Positions 35,458-40,184 of a stretch of DNA of 64,000 nucleotides are shown piece by piece. The DNA is taken from NCBI RefSeq assembly GCF_017833295.1, contig NZ_JAFIBW010000001.1:6014001-6078000 (forward strand), read 5' to 3'. Under the pieces are notes generated by a model that made no database searches, was not told where the DNA came from, and worked only from the letters and a program-made list of their open reading frames with translations. The number at the start of each line of letters is the position of its first letter. Positions within the stretch are counted from its first letter, which is position 1. The position numbers and the translations under genes are program-made. This stretch comes from Methylobacterium sp. PvR107 (GTDB lineage: Bacteria > Pseudomonadota > Alphaproteobacteria > Rhizobiales > Beijerinckiaceae).

Positions 35458-35868
35458 ATGACGCGCAGGCTTCTCCGCATCGCCGCCGTGGCATTCGCGC
35501 TCTCCGCGCTGCCGGCACTGGCCCAGCAGCCGGCCCGGACGCCGGGTCGGGCGGCAGCCGACAAGGCCGGCCCGGACAAGGGTGGACCCGACCGGCGCGG
35601 CGGGCCGCCGGTGATCGGCTGCCCGTCGCTCGCCAATTACCGGATGCTGCTGCACGACGGGCCGCAGGCGGCTGCCGCCCGCCTGGCCGATCCGAAGGCC
35701 GACCATCTCGGCTGCTCCGCCCTGACGCGCGCGGAGATGACCGGCATCGTCGACCGGGTGGTGCTGGGCGGGCAGAGCTACGATTGCGCGGGCGTGCGGG
35801 GCACGACGGCCTGCCACTGGATCGAGTCTGGAGCATCCGCCGCGCGCGCCGGCGCGGCCGGACGCTGA
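35458..35868 (+). CDS. Exported hypothetical protein
   Basis: A 136-aa protein with a clear signal peptide (LLRIAAVAFALSALPALAQQ, cleavage after ALA). The mature chain is short, has a Lys/Asp/Gly/Pro-rich linker, then Cys in VIGCPSLANY and GCSAL, SYDCAG, TACHW, which could form two disulfides in the periplasm. I do not recognise the family. ATG at 35458 follows AGGGAGGTGGG. Confidence 0.65.
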   Translation: MTRRLLRIAAVAFALSALPALAQQPARTPGRAAADKAGPDKGGPDRRGGPPVIGCPSLANYRMLLHDGPQAAAARLADPKADHLGCSALTRAEMTGIVDRVVLGGQSYDCAGVRGTTACHWIESGASAARAGAAGR

Positions 35869-35910
35869 CCTTCAGCCGCCGAGGATCCGGACGTTGTCGG
35901 CCGGGCGGCC

Positions 35911-36147
35911 TCAGCGCAGGTGGCCGCTGGCGCGCAGATCCCGCTCGACGGCCTCATGGATGGCCCGGAGCGGATTGTCGTTCGTGGCGCCCGGCGGAAG
36001 CAGGGGCACCATCGCGGCGGGCTTCGTGTCCAGGCCCGGCAAGATGGTGGGGCCGGATTCCGCCTGCCGTGCAGGCCGGCGCATGGCGAGGGTCCGCAGC
36101 GCCTCGCGGGCGCCGGGCGGAAAGAGCGTGGCGAGCTTGTCCAGCAT
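35911..36147 (-). CDS. Small hypothetical protein
   Basis: A 78-aa frame (MLDKLATLFPPGAREAL, MVPLLPPGATNDNPLRAIHE) with GAGG 7-8 nt before the ATG. Composition is plausible for a real small protein, with charged C-terminal helix (AIHEAVERDLRASGHLR). No family recognised. It lies 215 bp from selC. Confidence 0.5.
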   Translation of the reverse strand: MLDKLATLFPPGAREALRTLAMRRPARQAESGPTILPGLDTKPAAMVPLLPPGATNDNPLRAIHEAVERDLRASGHLR

Positions 36148-36361
36148 GTCCGAACCTCAACGCGCGCGGCCGGCGACGGCCGGCGGGAACGGGACCATGG
36201 CGACGGGTCGGTTCGTCACGCAGGCACCAGCACAGGATCGACCGACGACGGGAAACGGACCGGGACACGCGCCGTTCCGCTAAGCCATGCGTGCCGGTTT
36301 TGCCGCATGTGTCGCCCAGATACCAGCGAACACTGCTTTTCAGCTTGGATTGTGTGGAACC

Positions 36362-36454
36362 TGGCGGAAGCGGATGGGAATCGAACCCACCGTACGCTGT
36401 TGGCGTACCGCTGGTTTTGAAGACCAGGAGGGCCACCAGACCCTGTTCGCCTCC
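36362..36454 (-). tRNA. selC: Selenocysteine tRNA, anticodon TCA
   Basis: Read on the minus strand, this is a 93-nt tRNA including an encoded CCA. It has all marks of bacterial tRNA-Sec: GGAGGCGA acceptor strand (8 bp long type), a 6-bp D stem (AGGGTC/GGCCCT) with a 4-nt loop TGGT, anticodon stem CTGGT/ACCAG around CTTCAAA with anticodon TCA, a long variable arm (GTACGC-CAACA-GCGTAC), T arm GTGGG-TTCGATT-CCCAT and a discriminator G before CCA. The acceptor contains one G-U pair and an apparent A-C mismatch at position 8. It decodes UGA with SelB; no selA, selB or selD is in the window. Confidence 0.95.
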
Positions 36455-36461
36455 ACCCTCG

Positions 36462-36490
36462 GGGTTACGGGCCGCCGCCAGCGGGGTCAA
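36462..36490 (-). promoter_or_regulatory. Probable promoter of selC
   Basis: On the minus strand TTGACC (36490-36485), a 17-nt spacer and TAACCC (36467-36462) precede the tRNA 5' end by 7 nt. The -35 is good and the -10 weak but well placed. Confidence 0.45.
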
Positions 36491-36553
36491 GGGTTCGGTC
36501 AGGGCGCGCGGGCGCGGGTGCCTCGTCGCGCGCAATGGTCGCGGCCGCCCGCC

Positions 36554-37626
36554 TCAGGCTCCCCGCTCGTCCGGCGCGAGCGGCAGGCCGACCGACGCCC
36601 CCGTCCGGGCCGAGGTGAAGGCCGCCTCGAGGCAGGCCATCACGCGAACGGCCTCCAGCGCGGCCGTGTCGTCGACCGGGCCCTGGGCGATCGCCTCGGC
36701 CACGCCCTGGTAGAACCGGCGCTGATCCCCGGGCACGGCCGGACCATGCGTCACCCGACCGGACCCGTCATGGATCTCCGGCCCGTCCGGATCTGCGCCC
36801 CATCCCGGCGCGCCGGGGGGCAGGCCCGCGAGCAATTGCTGCTCCTGGGGGTCCGGGCCGCGCTTGATCAGGCTGCCGGCCTCACCGTGCACCAGGAAGC
36901 GGGGCGATCCGCCGGCGACCAGCATGCTGGCGTGCAGCACCACCCGCAGGCCCGGATAGTCCAGCACCACGTGCGCCCAGTCGTCGGCGCGCGCGCCGGG
37001 CCGGAGCCGCGCCAGGTTGGCCGTGACCCTTTCGGGCAGACCGAAGAGCTGGAGCGCCTGATCCACCAAGTGGGGCCCGAGATCGTACCAGATCCCGCTG
37101 CCGGGGCCGGCGCCCTCCCGCCACCGGTCGCGGACCTCGGGCCGGAACCGGTCGAAATGCGATTCGCAATGCCGCACCGGGCCGACGACGCCGGCTGCGA
37201 TGGCCGCCTGGACGGTCAGGAAGTCGCTGTCCCAGCGCCGGTTGTGGAACACCGTGAGCAATCGGCCCCGGCTGCGCGCCGCCGCCCGCAGGGCGCGCGC
37301 CGCCGCGAGGTCGAGGGTCAGGGGCTTGTCGATCACGACGTGCTTGCCCGCCGCCACAGGGCCGCCTGCGCCAGGGGGGCATGGGTGTCGTTGGGGGTGG
37401 CGATCACCACGAGATCGACGGCGTCCGCGGTCGCGACCGCGATGGGGTCGGCCACGACCGTCACATCGGGAAGGTCGGCCGCGACCCGGGCGGGATCGCG
37501 CGAGGCGATCCTCCGCAGGGCGAGCCCCGGGGCGGAGCCGATCAGAGGCGCGTGGAAGGTCCGGCCGGCATAGCCGTATCCGATCAGGCCGACCCGGATC
37601 GGCGCCGCCGCGGAAAAACCCGTCAT
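36554..37626 (-). pseudogene. Gfo/Idh/MocA-family oxidoreductase, frameshifted
   Basis: An NAD(P)-dependent sugar or inositol dehydrogenase split by one frameshift. The N-terminal Rossmann part (IRVGLIGYGYAGRTFHAPLI, then LVVIATPNDTHAPLAQAAL) starts at ATG 37626. The remainder (AAGKHVVIDKPLTLDLAAAR, FHNRRWDSDFLTVQ, and WYDLGPHLVDQALQLFG) is in the next frame from about 37360 to the stop at 36554. The break is in GCCCTGTGGCGGCGGGCAAG, which carries extra bases compared with the expected AAL-AAGKH. Everything else is intact and like YdgJ/IolW-type enzymes, so a sequencing error or a very recent mutation are both possible. Confidence 0.8.
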
Positions 37627-37820
37627 GGCCCGATCCTCCGTCAGCCCGCCACACGGTCGCGCGTCGGGTTACCCTCGGAGGCGGCTGACTCGCCATGGGA
37701 AAGGCACCGGCGCGGCTGCGTTCGGCGCGCTATTGAATCGGCGACGAATTCAACCTGTACGGGTCAACACCGGCGTGATTCGTATTAATTCCGCCACACT
37801 GTTGTGGCCCTGCACCACCC

Positions 37821-40184
37821 ATGCCGTTGCTGCAGCGCTCACCGACAGAGGAAGGCCCTGCGCCGGACCCAGATGGGTCGGGCGAGGGGGCCGGTCCGGA
37901 CGCGGCCCTCGCGGAGTCGCTGCGGCCGGGGCCCCGCGGTCCGGGCTGGATCGGCGCCGCCATGGTGGTCACCGCCCTGGTCTCGGCTCTGGCGACCTTC
38001 CTGATCCTGGCCGGGGTGATCCGGGTGACGCCGACGCCGGCTTACGGCGTGACCCTGCTGGCGATCAACGCCGCCCTGGTGCTGGGCCTCGCCTTCATCA
38101 TCGCCTGGGAGGCGCGGGTCTTCCTGCACGCCCGCAAGGCCAACGCCGCGGTCGCGCGCCTGCACACCCGCATCGTCGGCCTGTTCAGCTTGATCGCGAT
38201 CCTGCCGACGATCCTGCTCGCCGTGGTCGCCGCCGTGACCATCGACCGCGGTCTGTCGCTCGGCTTCACCGACCGGGTCCGCGACGTGGTGCTGAAATCC
38301 GTGGAGGTGGCCGACGCCTATCAGGAGAACCAGTGCCAGAGCCTCGCCCGGGAGATCCGCATCCTGGCCGACGACCTGACCCGGGCCCGGCCGAATTTCG
38401 ACGTCAACCGGGACTGGTTCCAGACCTTCCTGACGACCCGGGCGACCAATCTCGGCCTGCCGGTGGCGCAGATCATGCGCGGCCCCACAGAGGTGGTGGC
38501 CCGGGCCAAGATCGACGTGCTGAAGACCAACCGGCTGCCCTCGGCGGCGGCCTTCGAGGACGCGGCGAGCTCGGCCGACCCGATCTGCCTGCTGCCGACC
38601 GAGGGCCGGGTCTTCGCCGCGCTGATGCGGATGCCCGCCTACGACGACGCCGTGCTGATGGTGCAGCGGGAGGTCAGCCAGCTCGCCATCGACTTTCCCG
38701 GCGTGTCCCGGGCGGCGGCCGCCGAGTACCTCACCTACGATTCGCTGCGCCGCTCGATCCAGATCACCTTCGCGTCGGTGTTCCTCCTGATCGCGCTGAT
38801 CGCGCTGCTCTCGGCCGTCTGGTTCGGGATGAACTTCGCCAACCGGTTCGTGGCGCCGATCCGCCGGCTGATCAACGCCGCCGACCAGGTGGCGTCGGGC
38901 AACTTCTACGCCCAGGTGCCGACCAAGAAGACCAGCGGCGACCTTGCCCATCTCGGCGAGAGCTTCAACAAGATGACCCAGGAGCTGCGCCGCCAGCATG
39001 CCGGCCTGATCGCCGCGAGCGACCTGATCGACACCCGCCGCCGCTTCACCGAGGCCGTGCTGTCGGGCGTCTCGCCCGGGGTGATCGGCCTGGATGCGGC
39101 GGGCTTCGTCACCATCGCCAACCCGGCCGCCGAGCGCATGCTCGACCTGGACAGCGACGCCCTGGTCGGCCAGTCCCTCGCCCAGGCGGTGCCGGAACTC
39201 GCGCCCGTGCTGGCCGAGAGCGAGGCGCGCCTGCGCAGCCTGCAGCAGCAGCAGGTCCAGCTCACCCGGTCCCGGGGCGAGCGGACCATCACGGTGCGGG
39301 TGACGAGCGAGCAGGCGCAAGGCGCGCCCCGCGGCTGGGTGGTGACGCTCGACGACATCACCGACCTCGTCCAGGCGCAGCGCAGCTCCGCCTGGGGCGA
39401 CGTGGCGCGCCGCATCGCCCACGAGATTAAGAACCCGCTGACCCCGATCCAGCTCTCCGCCGAGCGGATCCGGCGCAAGTACGGGAAGGTGATCACCGCC
39501 GACAAGGAGGTGTTCGACCAGTGCACCGCCACGATCGTGCGGCAGGTGGACGAGATCAAGCGCATGGTCGACGAGTTCTCGGCCTTCGCGCGGATGCCCA
39601 AGCCCGCGATCGCGCCGAACGACCTGACCGAGATCGCCAAGCAGAACCTGTTCATGATGCGCGTGGCGCACCCGGACATCGACTTCGCGTTCTCGGCTCA
39701 AGGGGGCGCGGGGAATGCGGAGAAGATCGTGGCGGCCTTCGACATCAGGCTGCTCAGCCAGGTGATCACCAACATCCTCAAGAACGCCGTCGAGGCGGTG
39801 GCCGAGGTGCCCGAGGCCGAGCTCGGCAAGGGCAAGATCGCCTTGACCCTCGCCGTCGAGGACGGGTTCGCGGTGATCGCCGTCACCGACAACGGCAAGG
39901 GATTTCCGGCCGAGGGGCGCCAGCGCCTCCTCGAGCCCTACATGACCACCCGCGAGGGTGGGACCGGGCTGGGGCTTGCTATCGTCAGCAAGGTGCTTGA
40001 GGAGCACGGCGGCGGGATTGAGCTGAACGACAATCCTGCCGGCCGCGGCGGCCAGGTCCGGATGCGGGTCCCGCGCGAGCACGGGCCCGAGCCGGCGGCT
40101 GCGGCCCCCGAGACCAGTCCCGTCACGACAGAGGAGAAGGGCGCCGCACCGACGGCCCCCCGGATCGCGGAGATGCACGCATGA
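37821..40184 (+). CDS. ntrY: Nitrogen regulation sensor histidine kinase NtrY
   Basis: A 787-aa inner-membrane kinase. Four N-terminal membrane helices, a periplasmic/extracytoplasmic segment, HAMP (FANRFVAPIRRLINAADQVA), PAS (~residues 415-525) and the kinase core: H-box VARRIAHEIKNPLTPIQLSA with the phospho-His, N-box ITNILKNAVEAV, G-boxes TDNGKGFPAEG and GGTGLGLAIVSKV. It senses nitrogen or redox status and phosphorylates NtrX. Its stop overlaps the ntrX start (ATGA). Confidence 0.95.
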   Translation: MPLLQRSPTEEGPAPDPDGSGEGAGPDAALAESLRPGPRGPGWIGAAMVVTALVSALATFLILAGVIRVTPTPAYGVTLLAINAALVLGLAFIIAWEARVFLHARKANAAVARLHTRIVGLFSLIAILPTILLAVVAAVTIDRGLSLGFTDRVRDVVLKSVEVADAYQENQCQSLAREIRILADDLTRARPNFDVNRDWFQTFLTTRATNLGLPVAQIMRGPTEVVARAKIDVLKTNRLPSAAAFEDAASSADPICLLPTEGRVFAALMRMPAYDDAVLMVQREVSQLAIDFPGVSRAAAAEYLTYDSLRRSIQITFASVFLLIALIALLSAVWFGMNFANRFVAPIRRLINAADQVASGNFYAQVPTKKTSGDLAHLGESFNKMTQELRRQHAGLIAASDLIDTRRRFTEAVLSGVSPGVIGLDAAGFVTIANPAAERMLDLDSDALVGQSLAQAVPELAPVLAESEARLRSLQQQQVQLTRSRGERTITVRVTSEQAQGAPRGWVVTLDDITDLVQAQRSSAWGDVARRIAHEIKNPLTPIQLSAERIRRKYGKVITADKEVFDQCTATIVRQVDEIKRMVDEFSAFARMPKPAIAPNDLTEIAKQNLFMMRVAHPDIDFAFSAQGGAGNAEKIVAAFDIRLLSQVITNILKNAVEAVAEVPEAELGKGKIALTLAVEDGFAVIAVTDNGKGFPAEGRQRLLEPYMTTREGGTGLGLAIVSKVLEEHGGGIELNDNPAGRGGQVRMRVPREHGPEPAAAAPETSPVTTEEKGAAPTAPRIAEMHA

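Follow-up and report, generated by a model that had tools for sequence, protein, structure and literature searches.

The 64-kb window considered here, i.e. the entire stretch of DNA that was analyzed (C1:6014001-6078000), belongs to a genome assembled as one contig of 6,358,934 bases and 99.97% completeness. ARAGORN makes a single call within this window, a tRNA-SeC with the anticodon TCA, which corresponds to the selC gene (Table 1). Between selC and the sensor kinase gene ntrY lies a gfo-type oxidoreductase gene, and synteny reveals a gfo-type gene at the same place in G012, G016, G025, and G036. The gfo-type gene of the window seems to be frameshifted, with its N- and C-terminal parts located in different frames of the minus strand (36554-37696 and 37333-37626). 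On the plus strand, two ORFs (35784-36713 and 36287-37573) overlap the tRNA gene, both of which are probably spurious. A consensus scan for sigma-70-type promoters across positions 36200-36650 found 0, with 0.0 expected.

Table 1. Features of the selC locus (window positions) and of the associated Sec genes (chromosome positions)
Feature	Position	Strand	Evidence
selC, tRNA-Sec gene	36362..36454	minus	ARAGORN; Rfam RF01852 75.8 bits; pairs counted in 17 same-genus copies
5' end of selC	36454	minus	
Encoded CCA of selC	36364-36362	minus	
Anticodon TCA of selC	36418..36420	minus	ARAGORN (anticodon at position 35); read from sequence
Long variable arm of selC	36391..36409	minus	All 6 pairs standard in each of the 8 distinct copies; double-sided changes at two pairs in some copies
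gfo-type oxidoreductase gene between selC and ntrY	36554..37696	minus	Pfam GFO_IDH_MocA_C; ORF list; synteny
ntrY, sensor kinase gene	37821..40184	plus	Pfam NtrY_N, HisKA, HATPase_c; synteny; selC neighbor in 12/17 genomes
fdoG, encoding formate dehydrogenase; a single in-frame TGA at codon 199	369647-372724		
SECIS_3 (RF01989) match	370238-370296		63.9 bits, gathering score 63
selD	1428862-1429791	plus	412.4 bits
selA	4363579-4364922	plus	553.8 bits
selB	4715748-4717610	minus	262.6 bits

The selC tRNA gene

The selC gene of the window is an ordinary, standard bacterial tRNA-Sec gene. Its match to the bacterial tRNA-Sec family RF01852 extends over the full model (36454-36366; 75.8 bits, where the gathering score is 47), and it is the only match to any Rfam family at gathering threshold within the window. 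The predicted tRNA has a UCA anticodon, a 6-bp D stem with a 4-nt loop, a 5-bp anticodon stem, a 6-bp variable arm, and a 5-bp T stem, ending in a G discriminator followed by the encoded CCA. An earlier interpretation of this DNA, made from its letters only (the sequence-only reading), had proposed a tRNA-Sec with this anticodon, D stem and loop, long variable arm, and CCA; ARAGORN and the covariance model search that it recommended both agree. That reading gave no strand, which is now seen to be minus.

Unlike the family at large, this copy has an A.C at the eighth acceptor pair, as do all of the same-genus copies (17/17), whereas the other 7 of the 8 acceptor pairs and all 5 T stem pairs are standard. 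Rfam pairs the same acceptor and T bases as 9 plus 4, also with one non-standard pair. By eye, the eighth-pair position reads A-T in a Rhodospirillales MAG locus (L175). All of the 30 pairs except the eighth acceptor pair (29/30) are standard throughout the 17 copies found in the genus, 8 of which are distinct. If the partner strand is shifted by 1-3 columns, pairing falls from 96.7% to 44-56%. In the variable arm, some copies show double-sided changes at two pairs, but at least two such pairs also appear in 26/500 shuffles, which makes these changes modest evidence by themselves.

When scanned across the whole genome, RF01852 produces 10 matches. ARAGORN was applied to the best 8 of these, the other two scoring 32.7 and 31.9 bits, and among the 8 the gene at 36362-36454 is the sole Sec call. 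The next best match (51.5 bits, at 1827872) was rejected as a second tRNA-Sec, since ARAGORN identifies it as tRNA-Ser(TGA) and the general tRNA family of Rfam wins at this site.

Could the tRNA instead act as a suppressor, or as a tRNA-Cys of the selC* type, placing serine or cysteine at UGA? Sec-like tRNAs of such a kind do occur in other bacteria according to the available text of PMC7609411. However, the selC* tRNA-Cys described there carries a U discriminator, whereas the discriminator here is G, and the genome has both selA and selD, genes that co-occur with the tRNA. We consider this alternative highly improbable and retain the assignment as a tRNA for selenocysteine.

Sec genes across the chromosome

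Each of selA, selB, and selD is represented by a single genome match above its own curated cutoff, and none of these genome-wide profile matches falls inside the 64-kb window. The sequence-only reading was therefore correct in describing selC as detached from its partners, without selA, selB, or selD within 64 kb. It is now evident that these three genes are also apart from one another, with selA, selB, selC, selD, and fdoGHI-fdhE occupying five separate sites in this genome. A search of the selB and selA loci for remnants of selC gave only short, chance-level matches, with a best E-value of 0.15 outside of selC itself.

It had also been suggested that the organism inserts Sec at UGA, most likely in a formate dehydrogenase, and a suitable gene was indeed found in fdoG, downstream of which are located fdoH, fdoI, and fdhE, in that order. 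The RF01989 model has one match only in the entire genome, positioned in fdoG after its TGA, although its score is barely above threshold (63.9 vs. 63). When read through with Sec, FdoG matches TIGR01553 (FDH-N alpha) with 1409 bits. Its N-terminus resembles a TAT signal by eye. The genome encodes further FDH-alpha matches that lack a stop, two of them above cutoff, and therefore fdoG is not the sole formate dehydrogenase gene and selenium is not necessarily required for formate oxidation. The proposal that any CDS ending in TGA may be mis-annotated is too broad. Bacterial UGA recoding to Sec requires a SECIS hairpin, and because the one SECIS family searched across the genome (RF01989) has its single match in fdoG, not every CDS ending in TGA is suspect. 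Care is still needed with gene calls at these loci, since the standard code truncates fdoG at its TGA and spurious ORFs cover the tRNA.

According to the established pathway, the tRNA-Sec would be charged with serine, after which SelA would turn the Ser-tRNA into Sec-tRNA using selenophosphate made by SelD. SelB would then bring the Sec-tRNA to the UGA that forms codon 199 in fdoG. The hairpin located 3' of this UGA would direct selenocysteine insertion, and the product would be the alpha subunit in a formate dehydrogenase of the FDH-N/O type. Expression of the Sec genes is likewise presumed from established knowledge of the pathway. Judging from the sequence evidence, we are nearly certain that the tRNA-Sec serves selenocysteine insertion at this codon, and its detached position looks inherited. 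The gene is very probably in use, because selA, selB, selD, and fdoG with its TGA and SECIS match share the chromosome. The opposite scenario, in which selC is a relic of a lost Sec system, would be in keeping with its distance from the partner genes and with a decayed selD copy in the same genome. Nonetheless, the genome search proposed by the sequence-only reading recovered the full gene set as well as the UGA-containing formate dehydrogenase, and the score of the tRNA resembles the scores obtained for 16 relatives (74.6-79.3 bits), which leaves a relic exceedingly improbable.

Distribution of the Sec trait

The distribution of these genes was examined in a sample of 61 genomes, including this one, 36 others of the same genus, and 24 of the same order. 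RF01852 detects selC at 74.6-79.3 bits in 17/61 genomes, all from the same genus, with everything else scoring ≤52.3 bits. For selA, selB, and selD (above cutoff) as well as for a formate dehydrogenase match, the positive genomes are in each case the same 18/61. In other words, 18 of the 37 genomes from the genus combine selA, selB, and selD with a TGA-containing formate dehydrogenase, and 17 of these 18 have selC. The only member lacking it is G013, a draft of 420 contigs and 94% completeness. The TGA is found at the homologous codon in 20/20 formate dehydrogenase genes, 14 of which encode proteins with 89-100% identity to FdoG of this genome, while the other 6 represent a second type (43-44%). 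This second type, with its TGA at the same codon, was observed at L125-L130 in 6 relatives, and in four genomes it is the sole match at E ≤ 1e-100. None of the remaining 19 same-genus genomes has a formate dehydrogenase match at E ≤ 1e-100, a scope that excludes weaker, Cys-type relatives. In the sampled genus, the Sec trait is all-or-none and occurs in roughly half of the genomes, its genes being scattered. In the available text of two surveys (PMC5029168, PMC5322559), Methylobacterium nodulans is listed with an orphan SelD. Among the titles listed in our literature search, which was mostly without subscription journals, none dealt with the Sec trait of Methylobacterium.

Origin of the scattered arrangement

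A 2006 survey attributed similar selA-selB-selC operons with a neighboring fdhA to all then-known Sec-decoding Alphaproteobacteria, Betaproteobacteria, and Pseudomonadales (PMC1794560, as far as its text is available), a pattern from which the present genome departs. Compared to the alphaproteobacterial fdoGHI-selABCD clusters in the accessible portions of PMC1794560 and PMC8124441, the genes are the same and the selenoprotein is likewise of the FDH-N/O type, whereas here they are found in five separate places. The accessible part of PMC8124441 also describes selC nested in selB in diverse Alphaproteobacteria and a selC remnant at the selB of S. meliloti. Unlike those cases, the present selC is neither nested in nor adjoining selB.

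Among the 17 selC-encoding genomes, 12, including this one, have selC by ntrY, with nine at a distance of ≤1.5 kb and three more having a gfo-type gene in between. In G015, G018, and G021, selC instead follows selA, while in G035 it follows selB, with the selB stop preceding selC. For G006, no probe gene was encountered near selC within the 16 kb that were read. Because selC resides by ntrY in 12/17 genomes, as it does here, its detached position looks like an inherited arrangement and not like decay.

It is conceivable that the scattered genes were gained one by one via transfer instead of having dispersed from an inherited cluster. Such a history would fit with the behavior of selD, whose distances do not agree with those of the other three genes (Spearman 0.17, 0.17, and 0.31; 94, 81, and 34 of 1000 permutations, respectively) and whose intact copy has nearest relatives different from those of selA and selB. 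However, the pairwise distances of selA, selB, and fdoG are mutually concordant (Spearman 0.79, 0.73, and 0.84; 0/1000 permutations each), the position of selC is common to 12/17 genomes, and G015 has fdoGHI-fdhE-selB, selD, and selA-selC all within about 14 kb. Thus, we view one-by-one transfer as unlikely.

The selD gene has further peculiarities. The decayed selD copy mentioned above is located at 4450676-4451073 on the minus strand (about 8635-9074 of L035) and consists of N- and C-terminal pieces with the middle gone. Its flanks match the selD loci of G002, G012, G016, and G020 on both sides with 74-86% identity. The intact SelD protein is 91-96% identical to those of G007, G030, G036, and G025, and 77-78% identical to those of G002, G012, G016, and G020. 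In G036, an intact selD occupies the new site seen in this genome, and a second (old) copy contains a TGA, which is not at the catalytic cysteine. The simplest reading of these sequences is that a second selD has spread between lineages and that the former copy has decayed, in which case selD is apparently being replaced in the genus.

A second SelB and a candidate selenoprotein in relatives

Seven same-genus genomes encode a second class of selB (8 copies, L093-L100), with scores of 345-365 bits vs. 231-281 bits for the usual class and protein identities of 32-36% to the SelB of this genome. In 8/8 instances, the second selB match begins 66-80 bases past the end of a family-5 solute-binding protein (SBP) gene, and every one of those SBP genes (8/8) contains exactly one in-frame TGA. 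The genome of the window has no match to this SBP at E ≤ 1e-40. Each of the 7 genomes with the second selB has one RF01852 match >70 bits. The idea that the second selB has its own selC nearby was considered and rejected, as ARAGORN found no Sec-type tRNA in the 8 loci.

A scan of named genomes using two peptide patterns upstream of the TGA retrieved 60 SBP loci (L160-L219), which span Methylobacterium, Methylorubrum, other Proteobacteria, Actinobacteria, and Dormibacteraeota. Named Methylobacterium records hold 16/60, and the SBP of G020 is 100% identical to a Methylobacterium pseudosasicola record, which points to Methylobacterium as the genus sampled here. Except for two partial matches without that codon, all loci cover the site, and a stop occurs there in 58/58 (53 TGA, 5 TAG, and no sense codon). 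The flank contains a SelB match in 30/60 loci. In the other 30, many from Rubrobacter and its kin, two SelB queries found no SelB in the available flank, and therefore the SBP-SelB pairing is not general. ARAGORN, applied to 34/60 loci, called a tRNA-SeC(TCA) in 7, all with TGA in the SBP gene, and a Sec-like tRNA with a CTA anticodon (labeled Pyl by ARAGORN) in 4, all with TAG; the fifth TAG locus (L188, 4.4 kb) gave no tRNA call. UAG-decoded Sec was reportedly described by Mukai in 2016 for such Actinobacteria, in a study that PMC8124441 cites. The available text of PMC5330540 presents AhpC of Blastococcus as a case of UAG-decoded Sec. In the Methylorubrum loci L176 and L181, a second-class selB, selA, and selC are found together with the SBP gene, and both selC are identical to the genus majority.

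Several features characterize the SBP itself: 1) it matches PF00496 with 141.4 bits (cutoff 32.4), 2) its AlphaFold model has a mean pLDDT of 89.7 (23 sequences), with family-5 binding proteins as the best Foldseek matches, and 3) hairpins are predicted 3' of the stop codon, not all of them long, which fold in different registers in proteobacterial and actinobacterial members. Among the best 120 of 774 database relatives, coverage of the SBP query is ≤66% in every case, which would be expected of gene callers that begin downstream of the stop. It seems that public protein collections contain the SBP only in the form of its part behind the stop. When the ORFs of 6 loci were inspected by eye, transporter genes next to the SBP gene were weak candidates. 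No NCBIfam model was matched by the SBP above its cutoff, and neither NF040727 nor NF040735 (the SaoB and SaoX models) was matched at E ≤ 1e-3. In Table 1 of a 2026 review (PMC13188914), the Sec-containing binding proteins in the available text are SaoB, SaoX, and BtuF, and the SBP family is absent from its entries; our literature search for Sec-containing substrate-binding proteins also found no description of it. Like the SaoB and SaoX of that text, the SBP is a predicted substrate-binding protein with one Sec, whereas its motif is GHWU and not CUxxT or UxP. By analogy to NikA-like relatives, one might guess at a metal or selenium compound as its ligand.

Based upon its sequence, the SBP is a candidate selenoprotein family, and we consider it likely that a single tRNA-Sec serves two SelBs in these relatives, the second being dedicated to an uncatalogued family-5 SBP with an obligatory Sec. 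The interest of the selC locus lies in its scattered, inherited arrangement and, outside of this genome, in the second SelB with its own predicted selenoprotein, a pair that would be well suited to testing how SelB distinguishes SECIS hairpins. If true, the SBP would add a selenoprotein family that spans both Proteobacteria and Actinobacteria.
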